Assembly: GCF_016469035.1 (NCBI RefSeq)
Contig: NZ_JAEHJZ010000020.1
Location: forward strand, 1-36,058
Direction of reading: 5' to 3'
Source of the DNA: Gelidibacter salicanalis
GTDB taxonomy: Bacteria > Bacteroidota > Bacteroidia > Flavobacteriales > Flavobacteriaceae
DNA length: 36,058 nt
Shown here: one piece after another, positions 7,884-25,462 of the stretch
Numbering within the stretch: the stretch's first letter is position 1
Layout of the letters: each line of letters begins with the position of its first letter
Made by a program: the position numbers and the translations under genes
The notes under the pieces: generated by a model
The model's database searches: none
The model's input: only the letters and a program-made list of their open reading frames with translations
Told to the model about the DNA's origin: nothing

Positions 7884-8648
7884 TTATCTTGAGTGCTCTG
7901 CTATGGTGACTTTAATGCCCTTTTCTTCAAATTTCTTTATTAAACCTGCCGAAATTCCTTTGTCGGTAATCAATTCGTGAATCTGATCTAAATCGCAGAT
8001 TTTAGCAAAACTCTTTTTGCCAAATTTGGAAGAATCAGCTAAAACAATAATTTTTTGCGCAGCTGCTAGCATTTTTCTATTGAGCTGTGCTTCTTCTAAG
8101 TTGGTGGTAGAAAGTCCATAATCGAAATCAAGTCCGTCAACTCCTAAAAAAAGTTTGCTACAAGAAACGTTGGCTAAAATATGTTCGGCATAGGAGCCAA
8201 TAACAGAGCCTGACGAGTGCCGAATATACCCTCCTAGTTGGAGGATTTCAATGCTTTTGTCATGAATTAAATGTATAACTACATACAATGAGGATGTGAT
8301 TACCGTTAATTTGTTTTTGGGTTTGATAAATTTTGACAATGCTTGTACCGTAGTGCCTGAAGCAATAAGGATAGAATCATTTTCATCTATTAATCTGGCA
8401 GCGCATTCTGCAATCCCATTTTTTTCTTCTACGGAGATTTTTTCTTTTTCGCCAATCGCTTTTTCATTGATATAAGGATTGTCCAAAGAGGCACCCCCGT
8501 GGGTACGATATAACAGCCCCTTTTCCTCCAACAATCTCAAATCCTTACGGATGGTTACTGCAGAAACATCGAGTAGTTCGCATAAATCCAAAACTTCAAG
8601 GTGTTTTTCCTTGGCCAATTTTTCTAATATAATTTGATGTCTTTTCAT
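7884..8648 (-). CDS. glpR: DeoR-family repressor, probable glycerol-3-phosphate regulator
   Basis: 254 residues, the usual DeoR/GlpR length. The N-terminal winged helix-turn-helix covers residues about 3-57, with 'LLDVSAVTIRKDLRLLEEKG' as the recognition region and the family 'LYRTHGGA' link. The C-terminal DeoRC sensor domain (about 75-235) resembles sugar-phosphate isomerases ('IASGTTVQALSKFI', 'LFLGVDGLDFDYGLS'). It is divergent from glpD, so it most likely represses glpDKF and itself and is relieved by glycerol-3-phosphate. The effector is inferred from the neighbours, because DeoR proteins bind many sugar phosphates. The shared intergenic region contains phased TTTC(G/A)TTT repeats that make a good operator candidate. 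Confidence 0.85.
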   Translation of the reverse strand: MKRHQIILEKLAKEKHLEVLDLCELLDVSAVTIRKDLRLLEEKGLLYRTHGGASLDNPYINEKAIGEKEKISVEEKNGIAECAARLIDENDSILIASGTTVQALSKFIKPKNKLTVITSSLYVVIHLIHDKSIEILQLGGYIRHSSGSVIGSYAEHILANVSCSKLFLGVDGLDFDYGLSTTNLEEAQLNRKMLAAAQKIIVLADSSKFGKKSFAKICDLDQIHELITDKGISAGLIKKFEEKGIKVTIAEHSR

Positions 8649-8660
8649 AGTCTTGCATCA

Positions 8661-8668
8661 CAAATATA
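8661..8668 (-). promoter_or_regulatory. probable -7 box of glpR
   Basis: On the minus strand these bases read TATATTTG, a complete match to TAnnTTTG, 12 bases upstream of the glpR start. A minus-strand TTTCATTT (8672-8679) abuts it on the upstream side, so a repressor bound there would overlap the promoter and give autoregulation. No clear -33 TTTG was found at the expected distance. Confidence 0.45.
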
Positions 8669-8708
8669 AACAAATGAAAGCTGTTGAATGTAATATTCTT
8701 TAATTAGG

Positions 8709-8746
8709 TTTCGTTTTACATAAAAAAATTTCGTTTTGTTTCATTT
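8709..8746 (+). promoter_or_regulatory. candidate GlpR operator: phased direct repeats
   Basis: Three direct repeats occur: TTTCGTTTT at 8709-8717, TTTCGTTTT at 8729-8737 and TTTCATTT at 8739-8746. Their starts are spaced 20 and 10 bases apart, two and one helical turns, so all lie on one face of the DNA. An inverted copy (TTTCATTT on the minus strand) sits at 8672-8679. DeoR-family repressors commonly bind arrays built from TTTC/GAAA elements. The array ends 15 bases before the probable -7 box of glpD and would cover the -33 region. Binding is inferred. Confidence 0.5.
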
Positions 8747-8761
8747 AGAAAAAATAATATT

Positions 8762-8769
8762 TATATTTG
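8762..8769 (+). promoter_or_regulatory. probable -7 box of the glpDKF operon
   Basis: TATATTTG is a complete match to TAnnTTTG. A TTTG lies 23 bases upstream (8735-8738), and a TTTC lies at the more usual 19-base spacing (8739-8742). Both sit inside the repeat array, so repressor binding would block RNA polymerase. Confidence 0.5.
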
Positions 8770-8807
8770 AAACCAAATAAAAGAAATGTTGATAATACCT
8801 TTAGAAT

Positions 8808-10370
8808 TTGTTCGATAGAAAAACGTTAATAAAACCCTTAGAGAGCAGTCCTGATTGGGATGTTATTATTATTGGGGGAGGAGCAACAGGTTTGGGTGTG
8901 GCCTTAGATAGCGTTACAAGAGGTTATAGAACGTTGTTGTTAGAGCAATCTGATTTTGCCAAAGGCACTTCCAGCAGAAGCACTAAATTGGTGCATGGCG
9001 GGGTCCGGTATCTGGCGCAAGGCAATATTGACTTGGTTCAGGAAGCGCTTTATGAAAGAGGCTTGATGCTTAAAAACGCATCCCATTTGGTCAGAAATCA
9101 ATCGTTTATTATTCCTAATTATAAATGGTGGGATTCGCTGGTTTACACTGTCGGATTAAAAGTATATGACTTTCTGGCTGGCAAATTAAGTTTTGGTAAA
9201 TCGACCAGAATTTCTAAAAAAGAGACCTCCTCGCGACTTTCGACCATCAAAACAGAGCATCTTAAAGGTGGCGTTGTTTATCATGACGGACAATTTGATG
9301 ATGCCCGATTGGCAGTCAATATGGCCCAAACAGCAATTGAACAAGGCGCAACGGTTTTAAATCATTTTAAGGTAAGCCACTTGCAAAAGGATGCGAATGG
9401 AAAGGTTAACGGCGTAACGGCCATAGATAATGAGACCCATAAAGAATATACATTTAACACCAAAGTGGTCATTAATGCTACGGGCGTGTTTACTGATGAA
9501 ATCTTGCAAATGGACACTGCAGGGGCTAAAAACACGGTGAGACCCAGTCAGGGCATTCATTTGGTATTAGACCGCTCTTTTTTACCAGGTAATGACGCCA
9601 TTATGATTCCTAAAACAGCAGATGGAAGAGTGCTTTTTTTGGTGCCATGGCATCATAGAGTTGTGGTTGGCACTACAGACACGCTGCTGGATAGTCACAG
9701 TTTGGAGCCAAAACCACTTGACAAGGAAGTCGATTTTATTTTGGAAACGGCTAATGCCTATTTAAATAAGCCAGTTTCCAAAGCTGATGTTTTGAGCATT
9801 TTTGCTGGCCTTCGTCCATTGGCGGCTCCTAAAGATGCTTCAGAAAAAACGAAGGAAATTTCAAGAAGTCATAAAATTATTGTATCGACATCTGGTTTAA
9901 TCACCATTACAGGTGGCAAATGGACCACCTATAGAAAGATGGCTCAAGATACCATAAACAAGGTCATCTTTTTGGGTAAATTGCCGCATCGGGAATGTCA
10001 AACAAAACACCTGTCCATTCATGGCGCCGATGGGTCTGCTGATGATACTGACCATCTTTATATTTATGGAACAGATCAAAAGGCTATTGAACGTCTGATA
10101 CAGGAATCTCCAGAACTAGGAGACAAACTACATCCGAGATTGGAATTTTTAAAAGCTGAAGTCGTTTGGGCTGTAAAAAATGAAATGGCGCTCACAGTAG
10201 AAGACGTGTTGGCAAGACGTGTGCGAATCTTGTTCTTGGATGCCAAGGCGGCTAAAGAATGTGCACCTGTAGTTGCTGACATATTAGCATGGTATTTAGG
10301 CAAGGATGACGATTGGAAACAATCACAAATCAATGAATTTACGTACTTAACAAATCAATATATCTTATAA
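8808..10370 (+). CDS. glpD: FAD-dependent glycerol-3-phosphate dehydrogenase
   Basis: 520 residues. The N-terminal FAD-binding Rossmann fold is clear ('DVIIIGGGATGLGVALDS', about residues 19-36), followed by 'KGTSSRSTKLVHGGVRYL', a hallmark of GlpD/GlpA. The C-terminal DAO-C domain includes 'DVLARRVRILFLD'. The enzyme oxidises sn-glycerol-3-phosphate to dihydroxyacetone phosphate at the inner membrane and feeds electrons to quinone. The start is a TTG at 8808: no in-frame ATG lies upstream, and the TTG gives the short family-like N-terminus 'MFDRKTLIKPLE'. An out-of-frame ATG at 8786 opens only 10 codons and ends within the glpD start region. It is first of glpD-glpK-glpF and divergent from the repressor. 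Confidence 0.95.
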   Translation: MFDRKTLIKPLESSPDWDVIIIGGGATGLGVALDSVTRGYRTLLLEQSDFAKGTSSRSTKLVHGGVRYLAQGNIDLVQEALYERGLMLKNASHLVRNQSFIIPNYKWWDSLVYTVGLKVYDFLAGKLSFGKSTRISKKETSSRLSTIKTEHLKGGVVYHDGQFDDARLAVNMAQTAIEQGATVLNHFKVSHLQKDANGKVNGVTAIDNETHKEYTFNTKVVINATGVFTDEILQMDTAGAKNTVRPSQGIHLVLDRSFLPGNDAIMIPKTADGRVLFLVPWHHRVVVGTTDTLLDSHSLEPKPLDKEVDFILETANAYLNKPVSKADVLSIFAGLRPLAAPKDASEKTKEISRSHKIIVSTSGLITITGGKWTTYRKMAQDTINKVIFLGKLPHRECQTKHLSIHGADGSADDTDHLYIYGTDQKAIERLIQESPELGDKLHPRLEFLKAEVVWAVKNEMALTVEDVLARRVRILFLDAKAAKECAPVVADILAWYLGKDDDWKQSQINEFTYLTNQYIL

Positions 10371-10433
10371 ATACTAGCTGCTCAATATTTTAAGAGCTGT
10401 TTTTGTTTTATTTTTAAACATAAAAATCATATC

Positions 10434-11933
10434 ATGGCAGACTACATTCTCGCTTTAGATCAAGGCACCACGAGTTCTAGAGCTATCGTTTTTGATAAGC
10501 AAGGCACTATTATTTCTATTGCGCAAAAGGAATTTGCCCAATATTTTCCAAAACCCGGGTGGGTGGAGCACGACCCTTTGGAAATTTGGTCAACACAAAC
10601 CGGTGTTGCCGCTGAAGCTATTGCCAAAAAAGGTTTGGATGTAGGGAATATTGCAGCTATAGGGATTACCAATCAGCGGGAAACCGTCGTGGTTTGGGAT
10701 AAAAAAACAGGACAGCCAGTCTATAATGCTATCGTTTGGCAGGATAAAAGAACTTCTGATTTTTGCGATGAGTTGAAAAAGCAAGGTAAAAATGATCTCA
10801 TTAGGGATAAAACAGGGCTAGTCATAGATTCTTATTTTTCAGGAACCAAAGTAAAATGGATCTTGGATAATGTGGAAGGGGCAAGAGCTAGAGCAGAAGC
10901 TGGAGATCTTATATTGGGTACCATTGACACTTGGTTGGTTTGGAATTTTACCAAAGGAGAGCAGCACATTACAGATGTGACCAATGCATCCAGGACGATG
11001 CTTTTCAACATTAACACCATGGATTGGGACGATGAATTATTGGACTTATTGACCATCCCGAAAAGTATGTTACCTAAAGTGAAAGCCTCAAGTGAAGTTT
11101 ATGGGCATACAAAATCTACGTTTTATGATTCTAAAATTCCCATTGCAGGAATAGCGGGAGATCAACAAGCGGCTTTATTTGGCCAGATGTGCACCAAGCC
11201 TGGAATGGTAAAGAACACCTACGGAACAGGGTGTTTTATGTTGATGAACATCGGGGATAAGCCAGTGGTGTCCAAGCATAACTTATTGACCACCGTAGCT
11301 TGGAAGATAAATGGCAAAACGACCTATGCTTTTGAAGGCAGTGTTTTTATTGCTGGTGCAGTGGTACAATGGCTAAGAGATAGTCTGAAAATCATAAGAA
11401 CTTCTCAAGAAGTTGAATATTTGGCCGGTTCTGTAGAAAGTTCAGAAGGCGTTTATTTTGTGCCTGCTTTTGCAGGACTTGGTGCGCCTTATTGGAATCA
11501 GCACGCCCAAGGGGTCATTTTTGGGTTGACCCGAGGTAGTACAGATGCGCATATTGCACGTGCTGCTGTAGAATCTATTGCCTATCAGACCATGGACATT
11601 CTTAAAGCTATGGAAGCAGATTCTGGCATTTCAATAAAGGAATTGCGTGTGGATGGTGGTGCCACCATCAATAGTATGTTGATGCAGTTTCAGGCGGATG
11701 TGTTGAATACAGAAACCGTGCGACCAAAAATAGTGGAGACAACAGCTATGGGTGCGGCATTTTTAGCAGGTTTGGCGGTTGGATATTGGGAAAACCCCGA
11801 AGAAATTCAACAAATTTGGCAAACAGACAAACGCTTTTCCCCAAAACAAGATAGGACGTCCATAGAAAAGGATATCAAAGGCTGGTACAGAGCTATCGAT
11901 GCTTTAGAATATTGGTCTAAGGAAGATAAATAA
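10434..11933 (+). CDS. glpK: glycerol kinase
   Basis: 499 residues, full length for the FGGY family. The N-terminal phosphate-binding segment '[14 protein letters not shown]', '[13 protein letters not shown]', '[13 protein letters not shown]', '[15 protein letters not shown]' and '[19 protein letters not shown]' are diagnostic of GlpK rather than other FGGY sugar kinases. It phosphorylates glycerol to glycerol-3-phosphate with ATP in the cytoplasm, trapping glycerol brought in by GlpF and supplying GlpD. It follows glpD by 63 bases and precedes glpF by 22, so the three are probably one transcript. Confidence 0.97.
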
Positions 11934-11955
11934 TGTTAACAATCAATAACAGGAG

Positions 11956-12684
11956 ATGACACCATTTATATCAGAAATTATAGGAACCGCACTGTTAATC
12001 CTGTTAGGAGGCGGTGTTGTAGCCAACGTTGTATTGAGTAAAACCATTGGTAATAACGGTGGTTGGATAGTGATTACCACTGGCTGGGCGTTGGCGGTGT
12101 ATGTTGCGGTTGTCGTGGCATCACCTCATAGCGGTGCACATTTAAACCCGGCCGTAAGTATTGGTTTGGCCGTTGCAGGTAAATTTCCTTGGCAGGATGT
12201 TCCGGCCTATATATTAGCACAGATGTTAGGTGCCATGATGGGGGCAGGGGCCGTTTGGTTAGTGTATAAACATCATTTTAAAGCTACTGAAGATGCTGGC
12301 GCAAAAAAAGCGGTGTTTTGTACGGCACCGGCTATACGCAATCTTTTTAGCAATTTTTTGAGTGAAGTAATGGGCACCTTCGTACTTATTTTTTCAGTGC
12401 TCTATTTTACGGACGCAACCTTAGCTGAACCTGAAACGGTTATAGGTCTTGGCTCTTTGGGAGCATTGCCCGTTGCATTGGTAGTATGGTCCATAGGCCT
12501 GTCCTTGGGAGGGACAACCGGGTACGCCATTAACCCTGCCCGTGATTTAGGACCGAGAATTATGCATGCGCTACTGCCAATAAAAAACAAGGCTTCCAAT
12601 GATTGGAGCTATGCATGGGTCCCCGTTATAGGACCCATTGTTGGTGCATGTTTGGCAGCGGTGTTGATGTTGGCCTTAGCTTAA
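11956..12684 (+). CDS. glpF: glycerol facilitator (aquaglyceroporin)
   Basis: 242 residues with six hydrophobic helices and the two half-helix NPA motifs of the MIP family, at residues 64-66 (HLNPAV) and 193-195 (INPARD). The Asp197 directly after the second motif (NPARD) is the usual mark of glycerol facilitators as opposed to strict water channels. It sits in the inner membrane and lets glycerol diffuse in. An AGGAG directly abuts the ATG, unusual for this genome, where Shine-Dalgarno sequences are mostly absent. The spacing of zero makes its function doubtful. It is last in the glpDKF run. Confidence 0.95.
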   Translation: MTPFISEIIGTALLILLGGGVVANVVLSKTIGNNGGWIVITTGWALAVYVAVVVASPHSGAHLNPAVSIGLAVAGKFPWQDVPAYILAQMLGAMMGAGAVWLVYKHHFKATEDAGAKKAVFCTAPAIRNLFSNFLSEVMGTFVLIFSVLYFTDATLAEPETVIGLGSLGALPVALVVWSIGLSLGGTTGYAINPARDLGPRIMHALLPIKNKASNDWSYAWVPVIGPIVGACLAAVLMLALA

Positions 12685-12730
12685 GTATTAATTTGGGATT
12701 TTTGGCTCTTCCGTAATAGGAAAACTTCAT

Positions 12731-12761
12731 TTTGTATAATCATTTTCAAAAACTATCTTTA
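12731..12761 (+). promoter_or_regulatory. probable promoter of the PUL sensor gene
   Basis: TTTG at 12731-12734 and TATCTTTA at 12754-12761 are separated by 19 bases. This matches the Bacteroidota -33/-7 pattern (TTTG...TAnnTTTG) except for the last base of the -7 box. It lies 41 bases before the regulator ATG and after the glpF stop, so the sensor gene can be transcribed separately from glpDKF. Confidence 0.4.
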
Positions 12762-12802
12762 TGATTGGTCTTTATAGGTCTATTCGCTGACTGTTGTATT
12801 TC

Positions 12803-15574
12803 ATGAAAATTTTTCTTCTTCTTTTTTTTCTTATTTTAAACTTGACCGTCTATGGTCAGGAGATGCCTCCAATTGAGAAATTTTCTTCTGAAGACTACGG
12901 GGGGGACAATCAAAACTGGATGCTTTCTCAAGCTTCAAATCATTTTATGTATGTTGCCAACAATCGTGGTCTTCTTGAGTTTGATGGGGCCAGTTGGACG
13001 CTGTACGATTCACCAAACAATACCATCATGCGTGCGGTAAGCGTAATCGATGATAGAATTTATACCGGTTGTTTTGCAGAATTTGGATATTGGATCCCAA
13101 ATCAGTTTGGTGTTTTGGAATATACCTCGCTTGTGCCAAAGCTCGAAATGAAAATGGTAGAGGATGAGCAGGTCTGGAATATTATTGACTATGATGAATG
13201 GGTCCTTTTTCAAACCAATGACCATATCTATTTTTATAATACTGAGACTGAAAAATTCAAGACTATTGAAGTCCAAAACATTATTTACAAACTGTTTAAG
13301 GTTAACAATCGCATTTACTATCATGTGGCCAATGAAGGATTGTATCGTATTGATGGCGGTAAACCCAATCTTATCATTGGAGGAGACATCGTTGAAAAAG
13401 GCAGAGTCGTTAACGTATTTGAAGTAGATAATCAGTTGCGGTTGATTACAAGAAACAGTGGCTTTTTTACTTTTAAAAATGAAGAACTTAAAAAGTGGGA
13501 TATTGGAGCTGATGACATTTTAAAAGGCACGAGCGTTTTTACCGGAATTCAGCTGAAGGATGGATCCTATATGATAGGTACTATTTCAAATGGCTTGTTA
13601 CATATTACAAAAGAAGGTGAACTCGATTATCAAATCACCCAAAAAAGAGGACTGAGCAACAATACGGTATTGTCGCTTTTTGAAGATAATGCACAAAATG
13701 TTTGGACCGGTCTTGATAATGGGATAGACTGCGTCAATGCCAAATCGGCCATCAAAACCTTGTATGACTACGAAGGTGTGATGGGAACTGTTTATGCATC
13801 GCAAGTGTTTAAGGATGTACTATATGTTGGAACCAATCAAGGGCTTTTTTATAGAAAATTAAAGGATAGCAATGCAGTTTTTAAATCGATAAAAGGCACA
13901 GAAGGCCAGGTGTGGAGCTTTTATAACCATAATGATGAAACTTTGTTTTGTGGCCATCATTTAGGAACTTTTTTGATTGAAGGTGAAAAAGCAAAACAGA
14001 TTAGTACTGTGCTAGGGACTTGGGATTTTAAGAAAATACCCCATAACAACCAATTATTACTCCAAGGTAATTATACTGGATTGAACATTCTGCATAACAT
14101 AAATGGGAATTGGCAAGTGAGGAACAAAATTGGAGGATTTAAAAATTCATCACGATATTTTACAATTGACAAAGCCAATCAAGTTTGGGTAAACCATGAA
14201 TATAAAGGCGTTTTTCGCTTAAAGCTCAATGAGCAATTTACCGAAGTAAAAGAACTCCAAATGGAGAAGGCGCTCTCTGTAGGCAAAAATTCAAGTTTAG
14301 TAGCTTATAACAACCAGATTATCTTTGCTTCTGAAGAGGGAGTTTTTAAATCCGATCCCAAAAATGCCAGTTTTGAAAGAGATAGTATTTTAAGTACACT
14401 GTTTACTGGAGACAATTATATTTCAGGGAAGCTTATAGTGGATAAAGTGAATAAATTATGGGCATTTACCAAAGCCAATATCATTTATATAACCACTGAT
14501 GATGTGTCCAACAAACCTAAAATAAATACCATTTCTATTCCATCATATCTAAGAAAAGGGCCTCTGGGATATGAAAACATATCCTTAATTAATGACGACA
14601 GGTATCTCTTGGGTACAGCTAATGGATATATTACGATCGATCTCTCACAAATAGCGTACACACATAAGTATCATGTGTATTTAAATACAGTAACCCTTTT
14701 AGGGCTTGATGAGCAATATCAATTGTTAAATGTTGATACTGAAGGAGAACTTGACTATAAAAAAGGGATTATTAACTTTGAATATTCAGTGCCTGAATTC
14801 GATAAATTTCTTGAAGTACAATATCAATATCGATTAATTGGGCTGACTGACAAATGGAGTAAATTGTCCAACGAATCCCGCACTAGTTTTGAAAATCTTT
14901 CTTTTGGTGCATATAGATTTGAAGTTCGGGCTGTGATTGGCAATGACCCCTCTCAGAATTTAGAATCCTACAGCTTTACTATTAATAGGCCATGGTACCT
15001 GAGTAATTTGGCCTTAATTTTTTATACCCTATTGTTTTTGTTTCTTGGCGTTGTCACTCACAAAACCTATAAGCGCTATTACAGCAAAAAAATGAAGCAT
15101 GAGCAACTGGAGAATGAACAAACGATCATGAAAATCAAGAATGAAAAATTAAATCAGGATATAGATAGTAAAAATAGGGAGCTGGCTATTTCAACCATGA
15201 GTATTATTAAAAAGAATGAAGTGCTTAATAGTATTAAGAAGGAATTGCGGAAAAGTAAGGCCACATCTGAAATCAGCTCAGCGGTGGAGCTTATTGACAA
15301 AAACTTGAATAATACTAAAGATTGGAAGTTCTTTGAGCAAGCATTTAACAATGCCGATAAAGATTTTTTAGAGAAGATAAAACAGGCGCATCCAAATCTT
15401 ACTCCCAACGATTTGCGTTTTTGTGCTTACCTCAGATTAAACTTATCTTCAAAGGAAATCGCCCCTTTACTAAACATCTCTACTAAAAGTGTCGAAACCA
15501 AACGCTATCGTCTCCGAAAACGATTGAAACTAGAGCATGACGAAGGACTCGTTGAGTACATCCTAAATTTCTAA
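12803..15574 (+). CDS. membrane-bound Reg_prop / Y_Y_Y sensor with LuxR-type DNA-binding domain
   Basis: 923 residues from the ATG at 12803; an in-frame TTG nine bases earlier is less likely. A signal peptide (about 1-19) leads a large periplasmic double-propeller sensor ('GLSNNTVLSLFEDNAQNVW' is a typical Reg_prop repeat). This is followed by a Y_Y_Y domain (about 653-727, 'VQYQYRLIGLTDKWSKL'), a transmembrane helix (about 733-753), a long coiled coil, and a C-terminal LuxR-type helix-turn-helix (about 880-907, 'SSKEIAPLLNISTKSVETKR'). There is no histidine kinase or receiver domain, so it is not a classical hybrid two-component system but a one-component membrane regulator. It lies directly before susC and most likely senses a periplasmic oligosaccharide and activates the PUL. 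The ligand is unknown. Confidence 0.88.
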   Translation: MKIFLLLFFLILNLTVYGQEMPPIEKFSSEDYGGDNQNWMLSQASNHFMYVANNRGLLEFDGASWTLYDSPNNTIMRAVSVIDDRIYTGCFAEFGYWIPNQFGVLEYTSLVPKLEMKMVEDEQVWNIIDYDEWVLFQTNDHIYFYNTETEKFKTIEVQNIIYKLFKVNNRIYYHVANEGLYRIDGGKPNLIIGGDIVEKGRVVNVFEVDNQLRLITRNSGFFTFKNEELKKWDIGADDILKGTSVFTGIQLKDGSYMIGTISNGLLHITKEGELDYQITQKRGLSNNTVLSLFEDNAQNVWTGLDNGIDCVNAKSAIKTLYDYEGVMGTVYASQVFKDVLYVGTNQGLFYRKLKDSNAVFKSIKGTEGQVWSFYNHNDETLFCGHHLGTFLIEGEKAKQISTVLGTWDFKKIPHNNQLLLQGNYTGLNILHNINGNWQVRNKIGGFKNSSRYFTIDKANQVWVNHEYKGVFRLKLNEQFTEVKELQMEKALSVGKNSSLVAYNNQIIFASEEGVFKSDPKNASFERDSILSTLFTGDNYISGKLIVDKVNKLWAFTKANIIYITTDDVSNKPKINTISIPSYLRKGPLGYENISLINDDRYLLGTANGYITIDLSQIAYTHKYHVYLNTVTLLGLDEQYQLLNVDTEGELDYKKGIINFEYSVPEFDKFLEVQYQYRLIGLTDKWSKLSNESRTSFENLSFGAYRFEVRAVIGNDPSQNLESYSFTINRPWYLSNLALIFYTLLFLFLGVVTHKTYKRYYSKKMKHEQLENEQTIMKIKNEKLNQDIDSKNRELAISTMSIIKKNEVLNSIKKELRKSKATSEISSAVELIDKNLNNTKDWKFFEQAFNNADKDFLEKIKQAHPNLTPNDLRFCAYLRLNLSSKEIAPLLNISTKSVETKRYRLRKRLKLEHDEGLVEYILNF

Positions 15575-15882
15575 CAACACTACAGGTACTAAATTCACCA
15601 CGACAAAACCACTACAAGGGCTTATAGTCAGCGCATTAGCTTAATTTTATTTAAAAATAGCTAAACTTTCGGGTCCTTAATGTTTATGCGTATTACCGCG
15701 CTTATCATGTTAATTTTTTCTTAAAGAAATCGGCGTGTTCGTTTTTTATCGAGGTGCTATTTGCCGACTTAAGTTTTTTTTGGAGTTAAATTTACCAAGA
15801 TCGAGTATGGAATTCGCTTCTATGTGGGGTAAAATCATAAATGCAAAAAAGACAACTATAATTTTAACAAAAACCAATATTC
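15575..15882 (+). promoter_or_regulatory. 308-base susC leader / intergenic region
   Basis: The gap between the sensor gene and susC holds no gene. It contains an inverted repeat TTAGCT/AGCTAA at 15636-15641 and 15659-15664, a terminator-like hairpin at 15720-15781 (listed separately), and a weak promoter-like pair (TTTG at 15760-15763, TAAATTTA at 15787-15794, 23 bases apart). The last 90 bases before the ATG are A-rich and consistent with the initiation regions of this genome. The actual transcription start cannot be placed. Confidence 0.4.
15720..15781 (+). terminator. terminator- or attenuator-like hairpin upstream of susC
   Basis: CTTAA (15720-15724) and TCGGC (15730-15734) pair with GCCGA (15763-15767) and TTAAG (15769-15773), followed directly by eight T residues (15774-15781). 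The stem is interrupted by an asymmetric internal loop, and the apical loop is 28 bases, which is large for an intrinsic terminator. It could end the sensor transcript or regulate read-through into susC. Confidence 0.4.
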
Positions 15883-18800: not shown

Positions 18801-18957
18801 TCAAATCAGGTTTTATGTAACAGGTTCAAACTTATTTACAAACACAGATTATATTGGGTATAGTCCAGAGGTAAACATTAGAGATACATATTCAAATGCA
18901 GATACCGGCTATCCGGACGCAAGAAGTTTCACCTTTGGCGTAAGAGTTAAATTTTAA
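15883..18957 (+). CDS. SusC/RagA-family TonB-dependent outer-membrane transporter
   Basis: 1024 residues. Signal peptide (about 1-28, ending 'ILTAQ'), then the carboxypeptidase-regulatory-like domain (about 33-95, 'NGTVVSSEDNMPLPGTSV'), the SusC-type junction 'LDEVVVVGYGTQKKSD', the plug with 'MLRGRIAGLQV' and 'IYGSRGANGVVLITTKRG', and a long beta-barrel ending in the aromatic-terminal 'FTFGVRVKF' expected for outer-membrane insertion. With the SusD lipoprotein it forms the bed-bin uptake complex that imports oligosaccharides using TonB energy. The substrate cannot be read from the sequence; GH16 and GH3 enzymes next door point to a beta-glucan. It is followed by susD after 19 bases. Confidence 0.95.
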   Translation: MKLKLFNQKFKLLIALFFMSSMTILTAQTVTQVNGTVVSSEDNMPLPGTSVIEKGTNNGTSTDFDGKFKLDVANANAILIISYVGFKTQEVKASTNMSISLVPDASALDEVVVVGYGTQKKSDIVNSVATVDLEDATLTPTSDVNEMLRGRIAGLQVNVGGGTLRPGGTSEIIFRGQGSIEGSVSAIYVVDGIIRDGGIEDIDSDDIESIEFLKDASAQAIYGSRGANGVVLITTKRGKANKLSVSYHGFVTTKTIERNFDVYSGQEFAQLRREARRSTNAGDEYSPEDVNFTALELESIANNDFVDWEEELMKNGLVNSQAISVSGGTEMTKVFGSINYFKEGGIIPTSSYTRKTFRLNVDQKVSEKFSVNFDVNLLNDDTERPANVNVITFSPLGRAYDKNGNLTRFPSGEDASAVNPIFNLREQQNDEKGNDYVINVTPIWQITENLQYQLKTNMTRRTSERGQYQSSLSSAGDDVNGIARIDNQLRESYLIENILTWDKEFNDNNQLNVTLVQSAQENKFSRTFTEGQGFTNESLGYDGITNAIGNVTVERDKNQQRLASFLGRARYNFMKRYLFEVTGRGDGASVNSANNKWSFNPAVSFAWQIHKEGFLKDVNSIQELKFRASYGSLVNDLGRAYTSLFTAVGQNYIFDEESASGYSPSVILPNTDLRFERITTANLGLDFSVFNRILVGNFNWYDARTTDLLLKRGVPSTTGYEYTFFNAGELQNTGVELSLTANIINTDNFRWSVSTNWSNNKNKLIELYTDGDGNPILADDTYKYYVGQSVGVIYQYQFDGIWQVGDDFANAPQANPDSAIKQNNLRPGDIKIADTNGVDDNGNVTGVPDGKITQEDRVFTDPNPDWFGSVSTSLSYKGFDLFVDFYIVEGATKVNPFLNTYNNGGTLESKLNGVKVDYYTPENPSTTFPRPNYDAAPTYLNALAVRDASYVRLRTVSLGYSLSDAVNAQLGLDQIRFYVTGSNLFTNTDYIGYSPEVNIRDTYSNADTGYPDARSFTFGVRVKF

Positions 18958-18976
18958 TTTTAAAAAAAATAATATT

Positions 18977-20581
18977 ATGAAAATGAAGTTTTTTAATTTG
19001 GAATTAAAAGGAAGCCTGCTACTTTTCATAGCACTTTCCTTTGTCTTAGTGGGTTGTCAAGATTATCTTGAAGAACAACCAAGCACGCTTATTGACTCTG
19101 ATTATATTTTTACTACTCAAGAAGGTTTAAAGTCTGGCGTGGTTAGTTTATATAAGATAAACAGAGATCGATATGATAACGGGACAGAAGATTTCATGGG
19201 TGCCGTTTTAATGTCCTCCAGAAGTGACTTGGCATTTAGCAGATCAGGCTATACAGGATTGATGGGCAGATACGAAAGAGGAGTATCACCAGTTGACCAA
19301 GGTGCTAATTTTGTGTCAGGGCTGTTTTGGAAACATTATTATAACCTTGCCAATAAAGCAACGGCAATAATAAATGCTGCTGAGGATATAGAAGGCATCG
19401 ATGAAGAGGTGAGAATTCAGGTTTTAGGTGAGGCAAAGTTTTTTAGAGCTGAAGCTTATTTCTACTTATACAGAATGTTTAACAATATTTATGTGAGCAC
19501 TCAAACTGTCACTGTAGATAATGCCTTTGATGTGGTTAACGACAGATCTTCAAAAGAAGAAATTTTTGCACTCCTAAACAATGACCTTAGTTTTGCGATA
19601 GAGCATTTGGGATGGATAGCTACTCCTGGACGCGTTACAAAAGGAACGGCGAAACATGTAAAAGCAAAGGTGGCCATGTGGGAAGGTGATTGGGAAGAGG
19701 CTAAATCTCAAGCAGTTTCTCTCATCAACGAAGGTCCACATAGTTTAGTTGCAACAACTGCAGATGTTTTTGCTGGAGATAGAAATAACTCGGAAGCATT
19801 ATTTGTTATACAATCTAAGGATGATTTATTGGGTGGAGGAGAAAATACTATGATGAACGCTAACTATGTTACCCAGTATTTTCATATTTCTGGTATTGAG
19901 GCGAATTTGGACCAAGGAGGAAAGGGGTTCTCCCGTATATTACCAAATTTATATTTATTAAATCTATTGGCTGAAGATCCAAACGATACCAGAGACGATA
20001 ATACCTATTTTAGATTAAAATATTATTATACATCGGGTGATGAGGTTGGTCAGGAAATTACAATCTATAAACCAATAACCGATCTTAATAATCCAAGTCC
20101 TACGTATCAAAAATATTATCAAAATTTACACCCGTCATGTATAAAATTTGCTCAAGATGATGACGATCCTGACTCGTATTTGAATAGAAGTAATATTATG
20201 GTGTACCGTTTGGCGGAAACTTACCTAATTGCTGCTGAGGCCATCATGAGATCTTCTGGAGACCCTTTACCATACATTAATGCCATAAGAACCAGAGCTA
20301 ATGCTGAACCATTGTCAAGTGTCGACCAACAGGCTATCCTTGATGAACGCGCTAGAGAACTGGCTTTTGAAGGACAGCGTTGGTTTACTTTAAAGCGAAT
20401 GGGACAAGATGTTATTAACTCTCAAATCACTAATTATGCTGGCGATGGTGAATATTTCCCTAATAATTTAGGGAGTAAAGATCCTAGAGAAAATTGGAAG
20501 CCTTATTATATCAATTTTCCAATTGCACAAATTGATCTGAATTTATTAGGGCCAAATTACCCTCAAAATACTGGATATTAA
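18977..20581 (+). CDS. SusD/RagB-family glycan-binding surface lipoprotein
   Basis: 534 residues. A signal peptide is followed by the lipobox LVGC (Cys27) and 'QDYLEEQPST', the classic SusD N-terminus. The middle has the TPR-rich fold ('VLGEAKFFRAEAYFYLYRMF', 'GTAKHVKAKVAMWEGDWEEA'). The C-terminal segment 'LDERARELAFEGQRWFTLKR' is strongly conserved in the family. It sits on the cell surface, binds the glycan and caps the SusC transporter. It is separated by 97 bases from the GDPD-GH16 gene, which shows no terminator-like hairpin in between, so one transcript through the enzymes is plausible. Confidence 0.95.
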   Translation: MKMKFFNLELKGSLLLFIALSFVLVGCQDYLEEQPSTLIDSDYIFTTQEGLKSGVVSLYKINRDRYDNGTEDFMGAVLMSSRSDLAFSRSGYTGLMGRYERGVSPVDQGANFVSGLFWKHYYNLANKATAIINAAEDIEGIDEEVRIQVLGEAKFFRAEAYFYLYRMFNNIYVSTQTVTVDNAFDVVNDRSSKEEIFALLNNDLSFAIEHLGWIATPGRVTKGTAKHVKAKVAMWEGDWEEAKSQAVSLINEGPHSLVATTADVFAGDRNNSEALFVIQSKDDLLGGGENTMMNANYVTQYFHISGIEANLDQGGKGFSRILPNLYLLNLLAEDPNDTRDDNTYFRLKYYYTSGDEVGQEITIYKPITDLNNPSPTYQKYYQNLHPSCIKFAQDDDDPDSYLNRSNIMVYRLAETYLIAAEAIMRSSGDPLPYINAIRTRANAEPLSSVDQQAILDERARELAFEGQRWFTLKRMGQDVINSQITNYAGDGEYFPNNLGSKDPRENWKPYYINFPIAQIDLNLLGPNYPQNTGY

Positions 20582-20678
20582 AATCAGATTTATAAAAATA
20601 AAATAGACGACAACCAACGATTAATAGCAGGAGTTCTTTTTAGAATCCATATGCTTTAATGCCATAAAAGATTACAGT

Positions 20679-22268
20679 ATGCGTTTTATATTTATTGCTT
20701 TAGCTTTTCTAGCATTTAATGCTTGCAAATCATCTAAGTCGGAGAGTACTTTTTCATTTGTTGAGAATCCAGTGGTTGCCCACAGAGGTGCTTGGAAGGC
20801 TCAGAATCTTCCCCAAAACTCTATTGCATCCTTAAAACGTGCAATAGAGTTAGGTTGCACCGGATCAGAATTTGATGTTAGGATGACCTCAGACAATGTG
20901 TTGATTGTTACCCATGATCCTGATTTTAATGGTTTGTTTATTGAAGACCACACCTATGCAGAATTGTCAAAACACAAACTGCCCAATGGCGAAATGTTGC
21001 CCACTTTAAAGAACTATCTACTTGCCGGAATGGAAGACAATCCTGGTACCGGCTTAGTATGTGAGATCAAACCCTCCAAAACCGAAGGGAGAAATGCGCT
21101 CATGGCAGAAAAAGTATTGGAACTGGTTGATGAACTTAAGGCTGAGAGGTATATATCCTATTATATCAGTTTTAGCTATGAGCTATTAAAGAGAATTATT
21201 GAAATAAATCCCAATGCTAAAACACTATACTTAGATGGTTCAAAGTCTCCTAAAAGCTTAAAGGATGATGGTGTTACGGGATTAGATTATGCAGCATATA
21301 TCTATAAAAGAAAACCCGAATGGATAGAAAGTGCTAAAGCGAACAACTTAAAACTGAACGCTTGGACCGTCAATAAAACCGAAGATATAGATCTATTTTT
21401 GGCGCATGATTTTAATTATATCACTACAGATGAGCCAGAACTTGTATTTGAACGCATCCGAAATAGTGCCACGTATAACACAGGTTATCAATTGGTATGG
21501 AACGATGAATTCAATTATAAAGGTGAACCAGATACTACAAAATGGGTGTACAGTTACGGTTTTATCGCAAATCAGGAAAAGCAATATTATACTGATAGTT
21601 TAAAGAATGCCAGAGTAGAAAATGGGCATTTGATTATTGAGGCCCATAAAGAAAAACTCGCTAATAAAGATTATAACAATCCTAATCTTAAAGAATGGGC
21701 CAATTATAAAAAGGACATTGATTCCGCACAGTATTCCTCTGCAAGATTATCGACAGAAGGCTTAGCGGCATGGACATATGGACGTATTGAAGTTCGTGCA
21801 AAGTTGCCCAAAGGTCGTGGAATGTGGCCGGCAATATGGATGTTAAGTGAAGACCGAAAAGCTATAGGTTGGCCGGAAAGTGGCGAAATTGATATTATGG
21901 AACATGTAGGCTATGACAATGATACCATACATGGTACCATCCATACCAAAGCTTACAATCATTTAAAAGGAACCCAAAAAGGTAAAACCATATTTATTGA
22001 TGATCCCAATGAAACTTTTCATGTCTTTGCATTGGAATGGACCCCAGAGAAAATGGATTTTTTGCTGGATGGGGTTGTTTACAATAGTATAATAAATGAG
22101 CATAAGACTACAGCGGAATGGCCTTTTGATAAAAAATTCCATCTCATTTTAAATGTAGCTGTTGGAGGCATGTGGGGAGGATTAAAAGGCGTTGATGATT
22201 CGATATTTCCGCAGCAGATGACCGTTGATTATGTCAGAGTATTTCAGCAAAAACCTAAAGACTTATAA
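20679..22268 (+). CDS. fusion lipoprotein: glycerophosphodiester phosphodiesterase + GH16 endo-beta-glucanase
   Basis: 529 residues in one uninterrupted frame. Signal peptide and lipobox FNAC (Cys16). Residues about 30-258 are a GDPD barrel with the catalytic residues in place: His35-Arg36 (VAHRGAW), Glu64 and Asp66 (SEFDVRM), His79 (VTHDPD), Glu129/Lys131 (CEIKPS), and the C-terminal 'LNAWTVNKTEDI'. Residues about 268-525 are a GH16 domain starting 'YQLVWNDEFNYKGEPD', with the catalytic box Glu403-Ile-Asp405-Ile-Met-Glu408 inside 'WPESGEIDIMEHVGY' and 'MWPAIWML', as in laminarinase-type GH16. There is almost no linker. Predicted jobs: cleavage of glycerophosphodiesters and of an internal beta-1,3(4)-glucan bond, on the same envelope-anchored protein. 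The next gene starts at the base after its stop. The GH16 subfamily is judged by eye only. Confidence 0.9.
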   Translation: MRFIFIALAFLAFNACKSSKSESTFSFVENPVVAHRGAWKAQNLPQNSIASLKRAIELGCTGSEFDVRMTSDNVLIVTHDPDFNGLFIEDHTYAELSKHKLPNGEMLPTLKNYLLAGMEDNPGTGLVCEIKPSKTEGRNALMAEKVLELVDELKAERYISYYISFSYELLKRIIEINPNAKTLYLDGSKSPKSLKDDGVTGLDYAAYIYKRKPEWIESAKANNLKLNAWTVNKTEDIDLFLAHDFNYITTDEPELVFERIRNSATYNTGYQLVWNDEFNYKGEPDTTKWVYSYGFIANQEKQYYTDSLKNARVENGHLIIEAHKEKLANKDYNNPNLKEWANYKKDIDSAQYSSARLSTEGLAAWTYGRIEVRAKLPKGRGMWPAIWMLSEDRKAIGWPESGEIDIMEHVGYDNDTIHGTIHTKAYNHLKGTQKGKTIFIDDPNETFHVFALEWTPEKMDFLLDGVVYNSIINEHKTTAEWPFDKKFHLILNVAVGGMWGGLKGVDDSIFPQQMTVDYVRVFQQKPKDL

Positions 22269-23123
22269 ATGAAACAAGTGTTGATAGTATTGGTAGTTAT
22301 GACTTTTGCAATGACAAGCTGTAAAAGTTTGGATCAGGGTGCATTGAAATCAAATGGACTTAAGGTCATGACTTATAATATACGTTTGGATATCGCGTCT
22401 GATAAAGAAAATGCGTGGCCTAATAGAAAAGCATTTGTAAGTTCTCAAATTTTGTTTTTGGAACCTGATATTCTTGGAGTGCAGGAAGCACGGCCAAATC
22501 AGGTGACTGATCTAAATGATGCTTTAACGGACTATAAGTTTATCGGACAGGGACGAGATGGAGGACAGGAAGGTGAGCATGCCGGCATTTATTATAATAG
22601 CAAAAGAATGACAGTGCAGCAGGAGCAAACATTTTGGTTATCCACAACTCCAGAGACGGTTTCCAAGGGTTGGGATGCAGCTTATCCAAGAGTGTGCACA
22701 TTTGGATTGTTCACTTTTAAGCAGAGCAAACAGAAGGTGTGGGTATTCAATACTCATTTGGACCATGTGGGAAAAGTTGCCCAAAAAGAGGGCTTGCTAC
22801 TCATTTTAGAGAAGATTAAAAGGGTCAATAATCACAATTATCCAGTAATCTTAATGGGCGACTTCAATATAGAACCTGACTCTGAAATACTGACAAATTT
22901 AAGAACTAAATTCTCTGATTCAAGAGCTGAAGCTGAGGTTGTTTTTGGACCTGAAGGCACATTTAATGCTTTCAAATATGATGAACCTATTACCAGAAGA
23001 ATCGACTATATTATGGTTTCTGAGGGTATAAGTGTGCAAAAATACGCAACCTTATCAAGTACTATTGATTTCAGGTTTCCTTCAGACCATTTTCCTGTTT
23101 TTGTTCAATTAATGCTCAAATAA
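22269..23123 (+). CDS. endonuclease/exonuclease/phosphatase (EEP) family lipoprotein
   Basis: 284 residues. Lipobox MTSC (Cys18). The EEP (DNase I-like) metal-dependent phosphoesterase motifs are all present: 'VMTYNIRLD' (Asn37), 'LGVQEARP' (Glu73), 'NTHLDHVG', 'LMGDFNIEP' (Asp198, Asn200) and the C-terminal 'PSDHFPV' (Asp273, His274). The family includes nucleases, sphingomyelinases, inositol phosphatases and other phosphodiesterases. Lipid anchoring in a PUL makes a role on a phosphorylated glycan or on glycerol phosphate more likely than DNA repair. It begins immediately after the GDPD-GH16 stop and 11 bases before the GH3 gene, so it is firmly within this operon. The precise bond cleaved is unknown. 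Confidence 0.87.
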   Translation: MKQVLIVLVVMTFAMTSCKSLDQGALKSNGLKVMTYNIRLDIASDKENAWPNRKAFVSSQILFLEPDILGVQEARPNQVTDLNDALTDYKFIGQGRDGGQEGEHAGIYYNSKRMTVQQEQTFWLSTTPETVSKGWDAAYPRVCTFGLFTFKQSKQKVWVFNTHLDHVGKVAQKEGLLLILEKIKRVNNHNYPVILMGDFNIEPDSEILTNLRTKFSDSRAEAEVVFGPEGTFNAFKYDEPITRRIDYIMVSEGISVQKYATLSSTIDFRFPSDHFPVFVQLMLK

Positions 23124-23134
23124 AATTTTATCAC

Positions 23135-25462
23135 ATGAAAATCTCCACTTCAATTCTATATACAACCGTTGTAGGTTTAAAACTTTCTTTAATTGCATTA
23201 TTGTTATCATCGTCTTCAGATACTCGCAGTGTAAAACCATCACCTTCAAATAATTCTATCGAACAAAAAGTGGACTCTGTTTTGGCACTCATGCGCCTTA
23301 ATGAAAAGATTGGTCAGCTGGTACAATACAGTGGTGGATGGGATGCTACAGGACCGACATCTTCACAGGGCGATCAGCATAAATTGGAAAAACTCAAAAG
23401 AGGTGAGGTCGGTTCTATGTTAAATGTTACTACAGTAGCAAGTATTAGGGAAACACAAAAGATCATTATGGACAATAGTCGTTTAAAGATTCCTCTGATT
23501 TTTGCTTATGATGTTATTCATGGTTATAAAACAATTTTTCCAATACCGTTAGGTGAAAGCGCTAGTTGGGATTTGGAACTGATGCAGAAATCGGCACAAA
23601 TCTCCGCTCGCGAATCTGCTGCCTCAGGGTTGCATTGGACGTTTGCGCCAATGATAGATGTGTCTAGAGATGCACGCTGGGGTCGTGTCATGGAAGGTGC
23701 TGGTGAAGACCCATTCTTAAATTCGAAAATTGGTGTGGCGCGTATCAAAGGTTTTCAGGGTGATGATCTATCTTCTGAATTTACGATAGCCGCATGTGCA
23801 AAACATTTTGCTGGATACGGGTTTGGGGAGGCCGGACGTGACTACAATACGGTAAATATCGGGGTTCATGAATTGCATAATACAATTTTACCACCATTTA
23901 AAGCCGCAGCCGAGGCTGGTGTGGCCACTTTTATGAATGCGTTTAATGATATTGATGGTATTCCTGCAACTGGACATAAAGAATTGCAACGTGATCTATT
24001 GAAAGGAGAATGGCAATGGAATGGTCTTATGGTTTCAGATTGGGGCTCTATTGGTGAAATGATAGCCCACGGTTATGCGACGGACAAAAAGCATGCTGCA
24101 GAAATTGCCTTAAATGCTGGGAGTGATATGGACATGGAGTCTTATGCCTATGAAGCACATTTAGGAACCTTGCTAAAAGAAAACAAGATTTCGGTGGACC
24201 ATCTTGATGATGCCGTCAGACGTGTGCTACGGTTAAAATTTGAGTTGGGCTTGTTTGATGATCCCTATAAATACTGTGATGAAGAACGAGAAAAGAAGGA
24301 AGTATACACCCCTGAAAATTTAGCCTTTGCTAGAGAAGTTGCAAAAAAGTCTATTGTATTGCTTAAAAATGACAACAAGATTCTGCCATTGTCAAAAGAC
24401 ATCAAAAGTATTGCCGTAATCGGGCCCTTGGCAAATGATAAGGATTCACCGTTAGGCAATTGGAGAGGTAAAGGCGATTATAATTCGGCCGTGTCCTTAT
24501 TGGAAGGCGTAAAAGGAATGGTTGGTAAAAACACTAAAATCTATTATGAAAAAGGAATCGATTTGACCATACCAACTGTTGAACCCGGTAGCAATCAGTT
24601 TTTGCATCCTTTAAAATTTAATACCACCGACGCTTCTGGGATTTCGGCAGCTGTTGCCGCTGCAAAAAAAGCAGATGTGGTATTGCTGGCCATTGGCGAA
24701 AATGCGTATCAAACCGGAGAGGGTAGAAGTCAGGTGAATATTGGTTTTGCCGGATTACAGAACGAACTTTTGGAAGCCGTATACAAGGCAAACAAAAATG
24801 TGGTGATTGTGCTAATGAATGGTCGACCAATGGATCTTAGTCGCGCCTCGGAGATTGTACCTTCTATTTTAGAGTGCTGGCATTTGGGTTCAGAATCAGG
24901 CAATGCCATTGCTGATGTGTTATTTGGAGATTACAATCCTTCAGGAAAATTGCCAGTGTCCTTTCCGTACCATGTAGGTCAAGAGCCATTATACTACAAC
25001 CAAAAAAATACGGGAAGACCCTACAGTCCAAATCATGTTACGTTTTCCGGTTATAGGGATGCTCCTAAGGGCGCTTTATATCCTTTTGGATTTGGATTGA
25101 GTTATACCACATTTGAATATAGTGACATCAGATTGGACCAAACTGAAATGGCTGTAAATGGTGATTTAAAAGTGTCTGTAGATGTTAAAAATACAGGTGA
25201 TGTAGAGGGCGAAGAGGTCGTACAGTTATATATCAGAGATATGGTTGGCAGTTTGGTGCGTCCAATAAAAGAATTAAAAGGTTTCGAGAAAATCAATTTA
25301 AAAGCAGGAGCTTCACAAACCGTTATTTTTACGATTAATGCCGAGCTACTTCAATTTTACACGGCAAATAATACATGGGAAGTAGAACCAGGAGCTTTCA
25401 CCGTATGGATAGGCGGCGATAGCAACACCAAATTAAAGACAGGTTTTAGTGTGGTTGAATAA
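23135..25462 (+). CDS. GH3 family beta-glucosidase (BglX-like)
   Basis: 775 residues with the three-domain layout of BglX-type enzymes: GH3 N-terminal barrel (about 45-365), C-terminal alpha/beta sandwich (about 395-620), and a fibronectin-III-like domain (about 685-760, 'GEEVVQLYIRDMVGSLVRP'). The nucleophile is Asp302 in 'LMVSDWGS'. 'FAPMIDVSRDARWGRVMEG' and 'CAKHFAGYGF' are substrate-pocket motifs. It should remove terminal glucose from beta-linked oligosaccharides made by the GH16 domain. The N-terminus is hydrophobic and followed by a run of serines where PUL neighbours have a lipobox Cys, so it looks like a periplasmic secreted protein. It is the last gene of the PUL; the next gene is convergent. 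Confidence 0.95.
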   Translation: MKISTSILYTTVVGLKLSLIALLLSSSSDTRSVKPSPSNNSIEQKVDSVLALMRLNEKIGQLVQYSGGWDATGPTSSQGDQHKLEKLKRGEVGSMLNVTTVASIRETQKIIMDNSRLKIPLIFAYDVIHGYKTIFPIPLGESASWDLELMQKSAQISARESAASGLHWTFAPMIDVSRDARWGRVMEGAGEDPFLNSKIGVARIKGFQGDDLSSEFTIAACAKHFAGYGFGEAGRDYNTVNIGVHELHNTILPPFKAAAEAGVATFMNAFNDIDGIPATGHKELQRDLLKGEWQWNGLMVSDWGSIGEMIAHGYATDKKHAAEIALNAGSDMDMESYAYEAHLGTLLKENKISVDHLDDAVRRVLRLKFELGLFDDPYKYCDEEREKKEVYTPENLAFAREVAKKSIVLLKNDNKILPLSKDIKSIAVIGPLANDKDSPLGNWRGKGDYNSAVSLLEGVKGMVGKNTKIYYEKGIDLTIPTVEPGSNQFLHPLKFNTTDASGISAAVAAAKKADVVLLAIGENAYQTGEGRSQVNIGFAGLQNELLEAVYKANKNVVIVLMNGRPMDLSRASEIVPSILECWHLGSESGNAIADVLFGDYNPSGKLPVSFPYHVGQEPLYYNQKNTGRPYSPNHVTFSGYRDAPKGALYPFGFGLSYTTFEYSDIRLDQTEMAVNGDLKVSVDVKNTGDVEGEEVVQLYIRDMVGSLVRPIKELKGFEKINLKAGASQTVIFTINAELLQFYTANNTWEVEPGAFTVWIGGDSNTKLKTGFSVVE

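Follow-up and report, generated by a model that had tools for sequence, protein, structure and literature searches.

Polysaccharide utilization loci (PULs) for laminarin have been described in flavobacteria as variants A-D, of which variant A comprises a SusC/SusD pair (SusCD), a GH16 beta-1,3(4)-glucanase and a GH3 glucosidase (PMC6298971, accessible part). The first 36,058 nucleotides of contig NZ_JAEHJZ010000020.1 (51.7 kb) from the 5.16-Mb genome of Gelidibacter salicanalis, hereafter the window, carry a locus with the same components, whereas here GH16 is fused to a glycerophosphodiesterase (GDPD) domain and accompanied by a protein of the endonuclease/exonuclease/phosphatase (EEP) family, a sulfatase and the glycerol genes glpD, glpK and glpF (glpDKF). 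The accessible main text of PMC6298971 does not contain the terms phosphodiesterase, phosphatase or glycerol. The locus is proposed to be a laminarinase-type beta-1,3-glucan PUL for a glucan with glycerophosphodiester groups, coupled to glycerol catabolism, a reading whose chances we judge to be evenly balanced.

The GDPD-GH16 architecture already has a solved member, the multidomain beta-1,3(4)-glucanase of PDB entries 7WW4/7WWC, which is 48% identical to the window's protein. Unlike the window, the Pedobacter fusion loci mapped here (L086, L087, L089-L092; L and G denote our mapped loci and sampled genomes) have no SusCD-EEP-glp cassette in their flanks. The EEP family also includes a mannosyl-6-phosphatase (PDB 4C1R), whose context we take to be mannan, while the window's member lies beside a beta-glucanase and a GDPD. 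As far as the accessible part of PMC12448869 goes, 7WW4/7WWC is a Pedobacter terrae glucanase with no accompanying publication, and the code 7WWC is also printed there beside another enzyme. The view of the preliminary description of this DNA, that glucan PULs with a built-in phosphodiesterase are, as far as known, not characterised, must be qualified in view of this GDPD-GH16 crystal structure. GlpQ of Bacillus subtilis, described in the available text of PMC7086022 as a stereospecific glycerophosphodiesterase (PDB 5T9B/5T9C), has no glucanase domain, unlike the window's fusion. The PusCD loci of Flavobacterium likewise combine SusCD with phosphodiesterase and phosphomonoesterase genes (PMC8115612, accessible part), but they are phosphate-starvation loci, whereas the window adds GH16, GH3, glycerol genes and a Y_Y_Y regulator of its own. 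Among the open-licence PMC articles listed in literature searches, none tied GDPD to GH16, or glp genes to a PUL. What is new is a PUL variant joining laminarinase, glycerophosphodiesterase, phosphatase and glycerol catabolism, with possibly a new polymer behind it.

The glucanase, phosphodiesterase and probable phosphatase cassette

All genes named in the preliminary description are intact open reading frames (ORFs) on which Pfam and NCBIfam agree, and the described arrangement, a glp module followed by a SusCD PUL with GDPD-GH16, EEP and GH3, is borne out (Table 1). An adjacent SusC/SusD pair stands together with carbohydrate-active enzymes, as in a PUL, and the laminarinase-type GH16 and the BglX-type beta-glucosidase GH3 are the genes of a laminarin PUL, for which induction by laminarin is predicted only. 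The fusion and EEP genes are separated by 0 bp, EEP and GH3 by 11 bp, and the end of the sulfatase gene and the DeoR-type regulator gene by 17 bp. Because a genome of the same genus (G244) keeps the gene order at 79-97% identity, the arrangement is not attributed to chance.

The fusion contains a GDPD domain (PF03009, residues 35-254, E 1e-22, 81.8 bits against a Pfam cut-off of 23.6) and a GH16 domain (residues 344-519, E 5e-26, above the Pfam cut-off). Residues H35, R36, E64, D66, H79, E129 and K131 of GDPD, E403, D405 and E408 of GH16, and the lipoprotein cysteine C16 are invariant in 11 of 11 fusions, and the GDPD and GH16 residues are presumed to be catalytic. In the EEP, N37, E73, H163, D198, N200, D273 and H274 are invariant in 25 aligned rows (two of them repeats), with roles that we likewise presume. 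Judged by sequence, the catalytic residues of GDPD, GH16 and EEP are intact. An E to Q change in the PENT motif was considered as a sign of inactivity and dropped, as the position is Q, E or K in relatives that keep the other active-site residues. Over 472 residues, the AlphaFold model of the fusion (mean pLDDT 84) superimposes at 1.5 A on 7WWC, a structure obtained with laminaritriose; the GDPD half of the model is matched by 3no3. The nearest solved chains of GH16 include 7WWC, the laminarinase 3iln and SCLam, so that GH16 is near laminarinases by sequence and fold and a candidate member of the laminarinase subfamily GH16_3.

The EEP is probably a phosphomonoesterase, as far as its sequence tells, with 4c1r as the second of its four solved matches (E 1e-47), and the nearest solved chains of the GH3 include periplasmic beta-glucosidases. 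The adjoining S1 sulfatase carries the motif CSPSR (FGly C-x-P-S-R), as do five distinct relatives that cover the site, four others being cut there. Its nearest solved chains are an exo-4S-kappa-carrageenan sulfatase (6prm), a chain named 'Sulfatase' (6bia) and an iota-carrageenan sulfatase (6b0k), and its presence suggests a second decoration on the substrate.

In a family sample of 299 genomes including this one, with at most four candidates scored per genome, the full-length fusion was found in 11, the present one included. GDPD and GH16 are near neighbours in four further genomes (G225, G001, G143, and G133 with ~3 kb between them), and four have a GDPD of at least 55% identity without such a GH16 (G157, G269, G080, G289). 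A scan of GTDB genomes returned at least 592 matching stretches, and the best 80 loci contained 20 full-length fusions, 18 of them new (those of Tamlana and Aureibaculum marinum being G173 and G119), which reach into Saprospiraceae, Marinilabiliaceae, Chitinophagaceae and Sphingobacteriaceae. Neighbourhoods were mapped for 40 chosen 20-kb regions and for 38 of the 80 GTDB loci with flanks of up to 10 kb, with mechanically called ORFs labelled by BLAST to the window's proteins (E <= 1e-6). From these, 25 cassette loci besides the window were hand-picked for a close GDPD adjoining a SusC-like gene (three repeat or overlap pairs merged, one pair joined from two stretches). They hold GH16 in 24 cases, EEP in 20, GH3 in 14, glpK in 12 and the sulfatase (at least 66% identity) in nine, where a missing glp gene, sulfatase or GH3 may reflect a cut flank, and L042 (G047) ends with its contig. 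SusC and SusD are often replaced by distant versions (SusC down to 24%), and GDPD, GH16, EEP and GH3 are retained at 42-91% identity.

A GH16-EEP fusion occurs in Gramella sp. AN32 (L094:8836-10605), mirroring the GDPD-GH16 fusion; in a metagenome-assembled genome (MAG), GH16 is fused to GH2 beside EEP, and GH16 and EEP are also neighbours in G199 and at a second site of G125. We regard such fusions as good evidence, of a sequence kind, that one and the same substrate is encountered by GDPD, GH16 and EEP. Some loci vary by an additional GH2 enzyme, recognised by Pfam in L043, L047, L088 and L095 (the GH16-fused case) and by size and place in L110, and L043 also has two GH30 enzymes.

Table 1. 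Coordinates of genes and candidate elements of the locus in the window
Feature	Position	Strand	Support or remark
S1-family sulfatase lipoprotein	6397-7866	+	Pfam Sulfatase, E 6e-58, 197 bits
DeoR-family glp regulator (GlpR-like from its context)	7884-8648	-	Pfam DeoRC/HTH_DeoR
Candidate DeoR operator TTTCGTTTTGTTTCAT	8729-8744	+	deoR-glpD gap
glpD, glycerol-3-phosphate dehydrogenase	8808-10370	+	Pfam DAO + DAO_C
glpK, glycerol kinase	10434-11933	+	TIGR01311, 753 bits (cut-off 590)
glpF, MIP channel (aquaglyceroporin-like)	11956-12684	+	Pfam MIP; TIGR00861, 182 bits (cut-off 171)
Y_Y_Y + LuxR-HTH regulator, presumed PUL regulator	12794-15574	+	926 aa, between glpF and SusC; Pfam Y_Y_Y + GerE
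ACCACGACA-type repeat, candidate Y_Y_Y regulator operator	15597-15616	+	Upstream of susC
Recurrent element TGTTCGTTTTTTATCG	15736-15751	+	Upstream of susC
SusC-like TonB-dependent transporter	15883-18957	+	Pfam CarbopepD_reg_2 + Plug
SusD-like lipoprotein	18977-20581	+	Pfam SusD_RagB, E 1.5e-28
GDPD-GH16 fusion lipoprotein	20679-22268	+	GDPD ~20781-21440; GH16 ~21480-22256
EEP lipoprotein	22269-23123	+	Pfam Exo_endo_phos
GH3 BglX-type beta-glucosidase	23135-25462	+	PRK15098, 773 bits (cut-off 666)

Linkage of the glycerol genes

The gene set of a glycerol catabolic operon is present, with GlpK and the MIP channel above NCBIfam cut-offs and GlpD identified by Pfam, its best NCBIfam match (PRK12266, 306 of 360 bits) being below the cut-off. 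The channel carries the NPARD signature, whose usual meaning in MIP channels is assumed here. By profile, the absence of GlpT, on which the preliminary description had built, holds for the whole genome, where the best TIGR00712 match scores 53 bits and the cut-off is 632, other glycerol-phosphate transporters not having been sought.

Co-occurrence of glp, GDPD-GH16 and SusCD in other Bacteroidota, proposed earlier as a check, was found in part: glpK lies beside the cassette in the 12 loci counted above, but other carriers have no glpK match. The glp genes are upstream of the regulator in the window, G244, G134, G209, G119, G125, G157, Aureibaculum flavum, Polaribacter porphyrae, Psychroserpens and Winogradskyella echinorum, directly downstream of GH3 in G070 (L056), and farther downstream, behind GH31 and esterases, in G133 (L057). 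In G225 (L044) the order is glpK-glpF-GDPD-GH16, the gaps being ~126 bp (glpK-glpF), ~12 bp (glpF-GDPD) and ~12 bp (GDPD-GH16), and two Arenibacter loci (L097, L099) have the order glpK-glpF-GH16 with a glpF-GH16 gap of ~12 bp. A recurrent chromosomal place with glpK-glpF, a ~425-aa gene (in L044 a flavoprotein, as judged by eye) and a distant GDPD was noted in L061, L062, L069-L071, L097, L099 and L044, at which a cassette-type GDPD and GH16 stand in G225 and a GH16 in Arenibacter.

GDPD and glpK are 0.9-12 kb apart in nine of 12 genomes, a count that excludes G047 (unresolved), G001 (different contigs) and G173, G153, G181 and G269 (no glpK match). In all 11 control genomes, the distance between other GH16 genes and glpK exceeds 200 kb, none being within 20 kb; these controls, not a full count, were picked by eye among the listed matches with both genes on one contig, and the cassette carriers G125 and G157 among them were scored on another GH16. 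In a Fisher table, the 18 genomes with a close GDPD were compared with the 280 others: glpK of at least 84% identity is present in 9 of the former and 4 of the latter, and glpK of any identity in 14 and 116, respectively. Because both comparisons are confounded by kinship, we relied on the rearranged neighbourhoods, and a binomial calculation that takes no account of kinship was set aside. Mapping the glp label on the GDPD tree (38 rows, of which 37 are labelled) takes 11 changes; starred branches force at least five of these, and 147 of 500 shuffles (mean 12.3 changes) gave a number as low, so that the label is not clustered.

A second locus in the same genome (L054, C284:68000-87990) contains SusC, a SusD-like protein (by eye), a calcineurin-type phosphoesterase, a GDPD, an HAD phosphatase and glpDKF, with a glpK 90% identical to the window's. 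It parallels the proposed order of diesterase, phosphatase, glycerol channel, kinase and dehydrogenase. Three genomes, this one, G094 (glpK ~11 kb away) and G180, have a GDPD with 62% or more identity to the L054 protein. Because of the glp linkage, the distant controls and L054, a catabolic route through GDPD, phosphatase, GlpF, GlpK and GlpD is credible. A third glpK/glpD-like pair of this genome is present in L055 (C541:17000-36990), a SusCD locus with an alpha-galactosidase-like protein and an SSS-type symporter (the latter two by eye).

Regulators and upstream elements

The gene previously called glpR belongs to the DeoR family and stands in a glp context, but with it none of the NCBIfam equivalogs exceeds its cut-off, the top one being AgaR with 231 of 260 bits. 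It adjoins glpDKF in six of the 25 cassette loci, and it is treated as the glp regulator because its relatives adjoin glpDKF in L065 and L073, where no genes like those of the window's PUL lie in the 20-kb stretch mapped. The candidate operator TTTCGTTTTGTTTCAT recurs in the deoR-glpD gaps of relatives and is the top site of the window, at 24.2 bits against 13.1 for the next, under a 16-bp matrix built from five deoR-glpD sites including the window's own. Plain shuffles (20) gave 3.0 matches of at least 10.5 bits per window, and the matrix found no shared operator at susC, where a score of 11.1 at 15737 is about background. In relatives, sites reach 18.8 bits (L039, within the regulator ORF), and a weak site (11-15.7 bits) recurs towards the 3' end of this ORF in the window, L034, L036, L037, L038, L041 and L048; such sites inside regulator ORFs are taken as coding sequence.

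The Y_Y_Y regulator adjoins the cassette in 24 of the 25 other loci, the exception being L042 on a 7.9-kb contig. The ACCACGACA-type repeat recurs in the gaps between this regulator and susC in relatives, and the window has one match at one mismatch against 0.05 expected, for a pattern derived from those gaps themselves. The element TGTTCGTTTTTTATCG also recurs there, in altered form in L039, L043 and L045-L047, with two window matches at up to three mismatches against 0.65 expected, the pattern being drawn from the same site. The repeats and TGTTCGTTTTTTATCG in the window's gap (15575-15882) together form a candidate operator for this Y_Y_Y/LuxR regulator class. Sigma-70 promoter patterns (75 against 64.6, sd 10, in shuffles) and terminator patterns (8 against 14.1) show no clear excess and no excess, respectively, in the window. 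Elsewhere in the window, a PQQ-type sugar dehydrogenase-like gene (128-1641) is followed by a cytochrome c-like gene (by eye), and 31089-31727 encodes a protein of the SRAP (SOS response associated peptidase) family with 212 aa.

Substrate and rival explanations

In the proposed scheme, in which substrate, cleavage products, cell locations and co-expression are presumptive, glycerophosphodiester side groups would be hydrolysed by the GDPD domain of the surface lipoprotein fusion, and the beta-1,3-glucan laid bare in this way would be cut by its GH16 domain, the oligosaccharides being imported by SusCD. The EEP may then dephosphorylate the freed glycerol phosphate or residual sugar phosphate, GH3 would trim the oligosaccharides to glucose, a further decoration would be taken off by the S1 sulfatase, and glycerol would enter via GlpF for catabolism by GlpK and GlpD. 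What was observed is the gene content, the intactness of the catalytic residues, the fold and the recurrent linkage. For the phosphoglycerol-glucan reading of the preliminary description speak the linkage of glp with GDPD/GH16, the intact residues, the missing GlpT and L054, while the phosphoglycerol on the glucan is conjectural, glp is dispensable, a shared operator was not found and the sulfatase stands outside the scheme as first drawn.

Osmoregulated periplasmic glucans (OPG), which had been offered as an example, are a doubtful substrate, as phosphoglycerol OPG are disfavoured on linkage and stereochemistry. Cyclic beta-1,3-beta-1,6 OPG exist, and we met no evidence of phosphoglycerol on them. 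Beta-1,2-glucanases, which would mark OPG degradation, are known from GH144, GH162, GH186 and GH189; none appears in the Pfam tables of the 15 window proteins scanned, no dedicated model having been run. Tentatively, and with more doubt than belief, we suggest an undescribed class of marine beta-1,3-glucan bearing glycerophosphate, and perhaps sulfate, and so common that several Bacteroidota lineages retain a dedicated PUL that combines a fused phosphodiesterase-endoglucanase surface protein with adjoining glp genes.

A number of observations weigh against a glucan with glycerophosphodiester groups as the substrate. We know of no phosphoglycerol-bearing beta-1,3-glucan from a marine-type habitat, none is named among the open-licence PMC articles listed in the searches, and the solved relative 7WW4/7WWC is reported solely as a glucanase. 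The gene list on which this reading was first based omitted the sulfatase, a recurrent member of the cluster. Eight Pedobacter and Niabella fusion loci have no window-like regulator, SusCD, EEP or glp in their 10-kb flanks, and in G013, the other sampled genome of the same genus, nothing matches the fusion at E <= 1e-30 or glpK at E <= 1e-150. In Arenibacter, GH16 is coupled to glpKF with no close GDPD; GDPD and glpK lie 270-552 kb apart in G143, G080 and G289 and on different contigs in G001, and G180, with its L054-like GDPD, has no glpK match. At E <= 1e-100, no glpK was found in four of 25 genomes searched on the basis of mapped loci (a Lutibacter MAG, Tamlana, a Saccharicrinis MAG and Cellulophaga baltica), all of which bear the fusion cassette, nor, at E <= 1e-150, in the cassette carriers G153, G173 (the Tamlana genome, also G300) and G181, and G173 and G181 have no glpD match at E <= 1e-20. 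Because cassette genomes with no glpK match exist, glycerol use is a frequent extra and the glp module is dispensable, not core. The genome-level association of glp and GDPD is confounded by kinship, as noted, and gain and loss of glp are indistinguishable on the GDPD tree. With the DeoR operator found at deoR/glpD only and separate recurrent elements upstream of susC, the sequence does not indicate control of glp and PUL as one regulon and gives no sign of co-induction.

It is unlikely, but by no means negligible, that the enzymes serve separate molecules in a laminarin-type PUL, GH16 acting on storage or wall beta-glucan of lysed algae or fungi, and GDPD, EEP and the Glp proteins on glycerophosphodiesters from membrane lipids in the debris. 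The laminaritriose bound by the solved fusion relative would fit this, as would L054, with no glycosidase among its GDPD, phosphatase and glpDKF genes, and the Arenibacter GH16 beside glpKF; however, the GDPD-GH16 and GH16-EEP fusions, and cassettes retained in genomes with no glpK match, suggest one shared substrate. Several such glpK-free cassette genomes, the GH16-EEP fusion and the mannosyl-6-phosphatase among the EEP's solved relatives agree with a decoration that is a phosphodiester without glycerol (e.g., sugar-P-sugar), which GDPD would open and EEP would strip of its sugar phosphate in a phosphomannan-like manner, glp being a frequent separate neighbour. We consider this rather improbable in view of the differing arrangements in which glpKF adjoin GDPD/GH16, the parallel locus L054 and the controls, none of which had GH16 near glpK.

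GDPD and EEP are phosphate-releasing enzyme types, and phosphate-inducible SusCD loci with phosphomonoesterases and phosphodiesterases have been described in Flavobacterium (PMC8115612, accessible part), which would fit a Pus-type scavenging locus induced by phosphate starvation and not by a glycan. There is little to recommend this, since the cassette has its own Y_Y_Y/LuxR regulator in 24 of 25 loci, GH16 in as many and GH3 in 14, and the sulfatase and glycerol catabolism point to carbon. Chance adjacency of an ordinary laminarin PUL and an ordinary glp operon, retained together by descent, would explain why 11 of 13 linked loci, the window included, have one order with glp upstream of the regulator, and why the regulatory sites of glp and PUL are separate, but the other orders and chromosomal places, the short gaps, the second locus and the scatter of the glp label on the GDPD tree make it very improbable.

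If glycerophosphodiester groups on the glucan are indeed the target, and if they come from phosphatidylglycerol, GlpD could make no use of the sn-glycerol-1-phosphate set free; the correct enantiomer would then be reached only through removal of the phosphate by EEP and the subsequent action of GlpK. Laminarin accounts for more than 10% of the CO2 fixed yearly, according to the accessible text of PMC11345257. Should the proposed reading be true, part of the laminarin-type glucan pool would carry both phosphate and glycerol and so connect the carbon cycle with that of phosphorus, and the PUL would provide an enzyme kit and a SusD bait for finding such a polymer.

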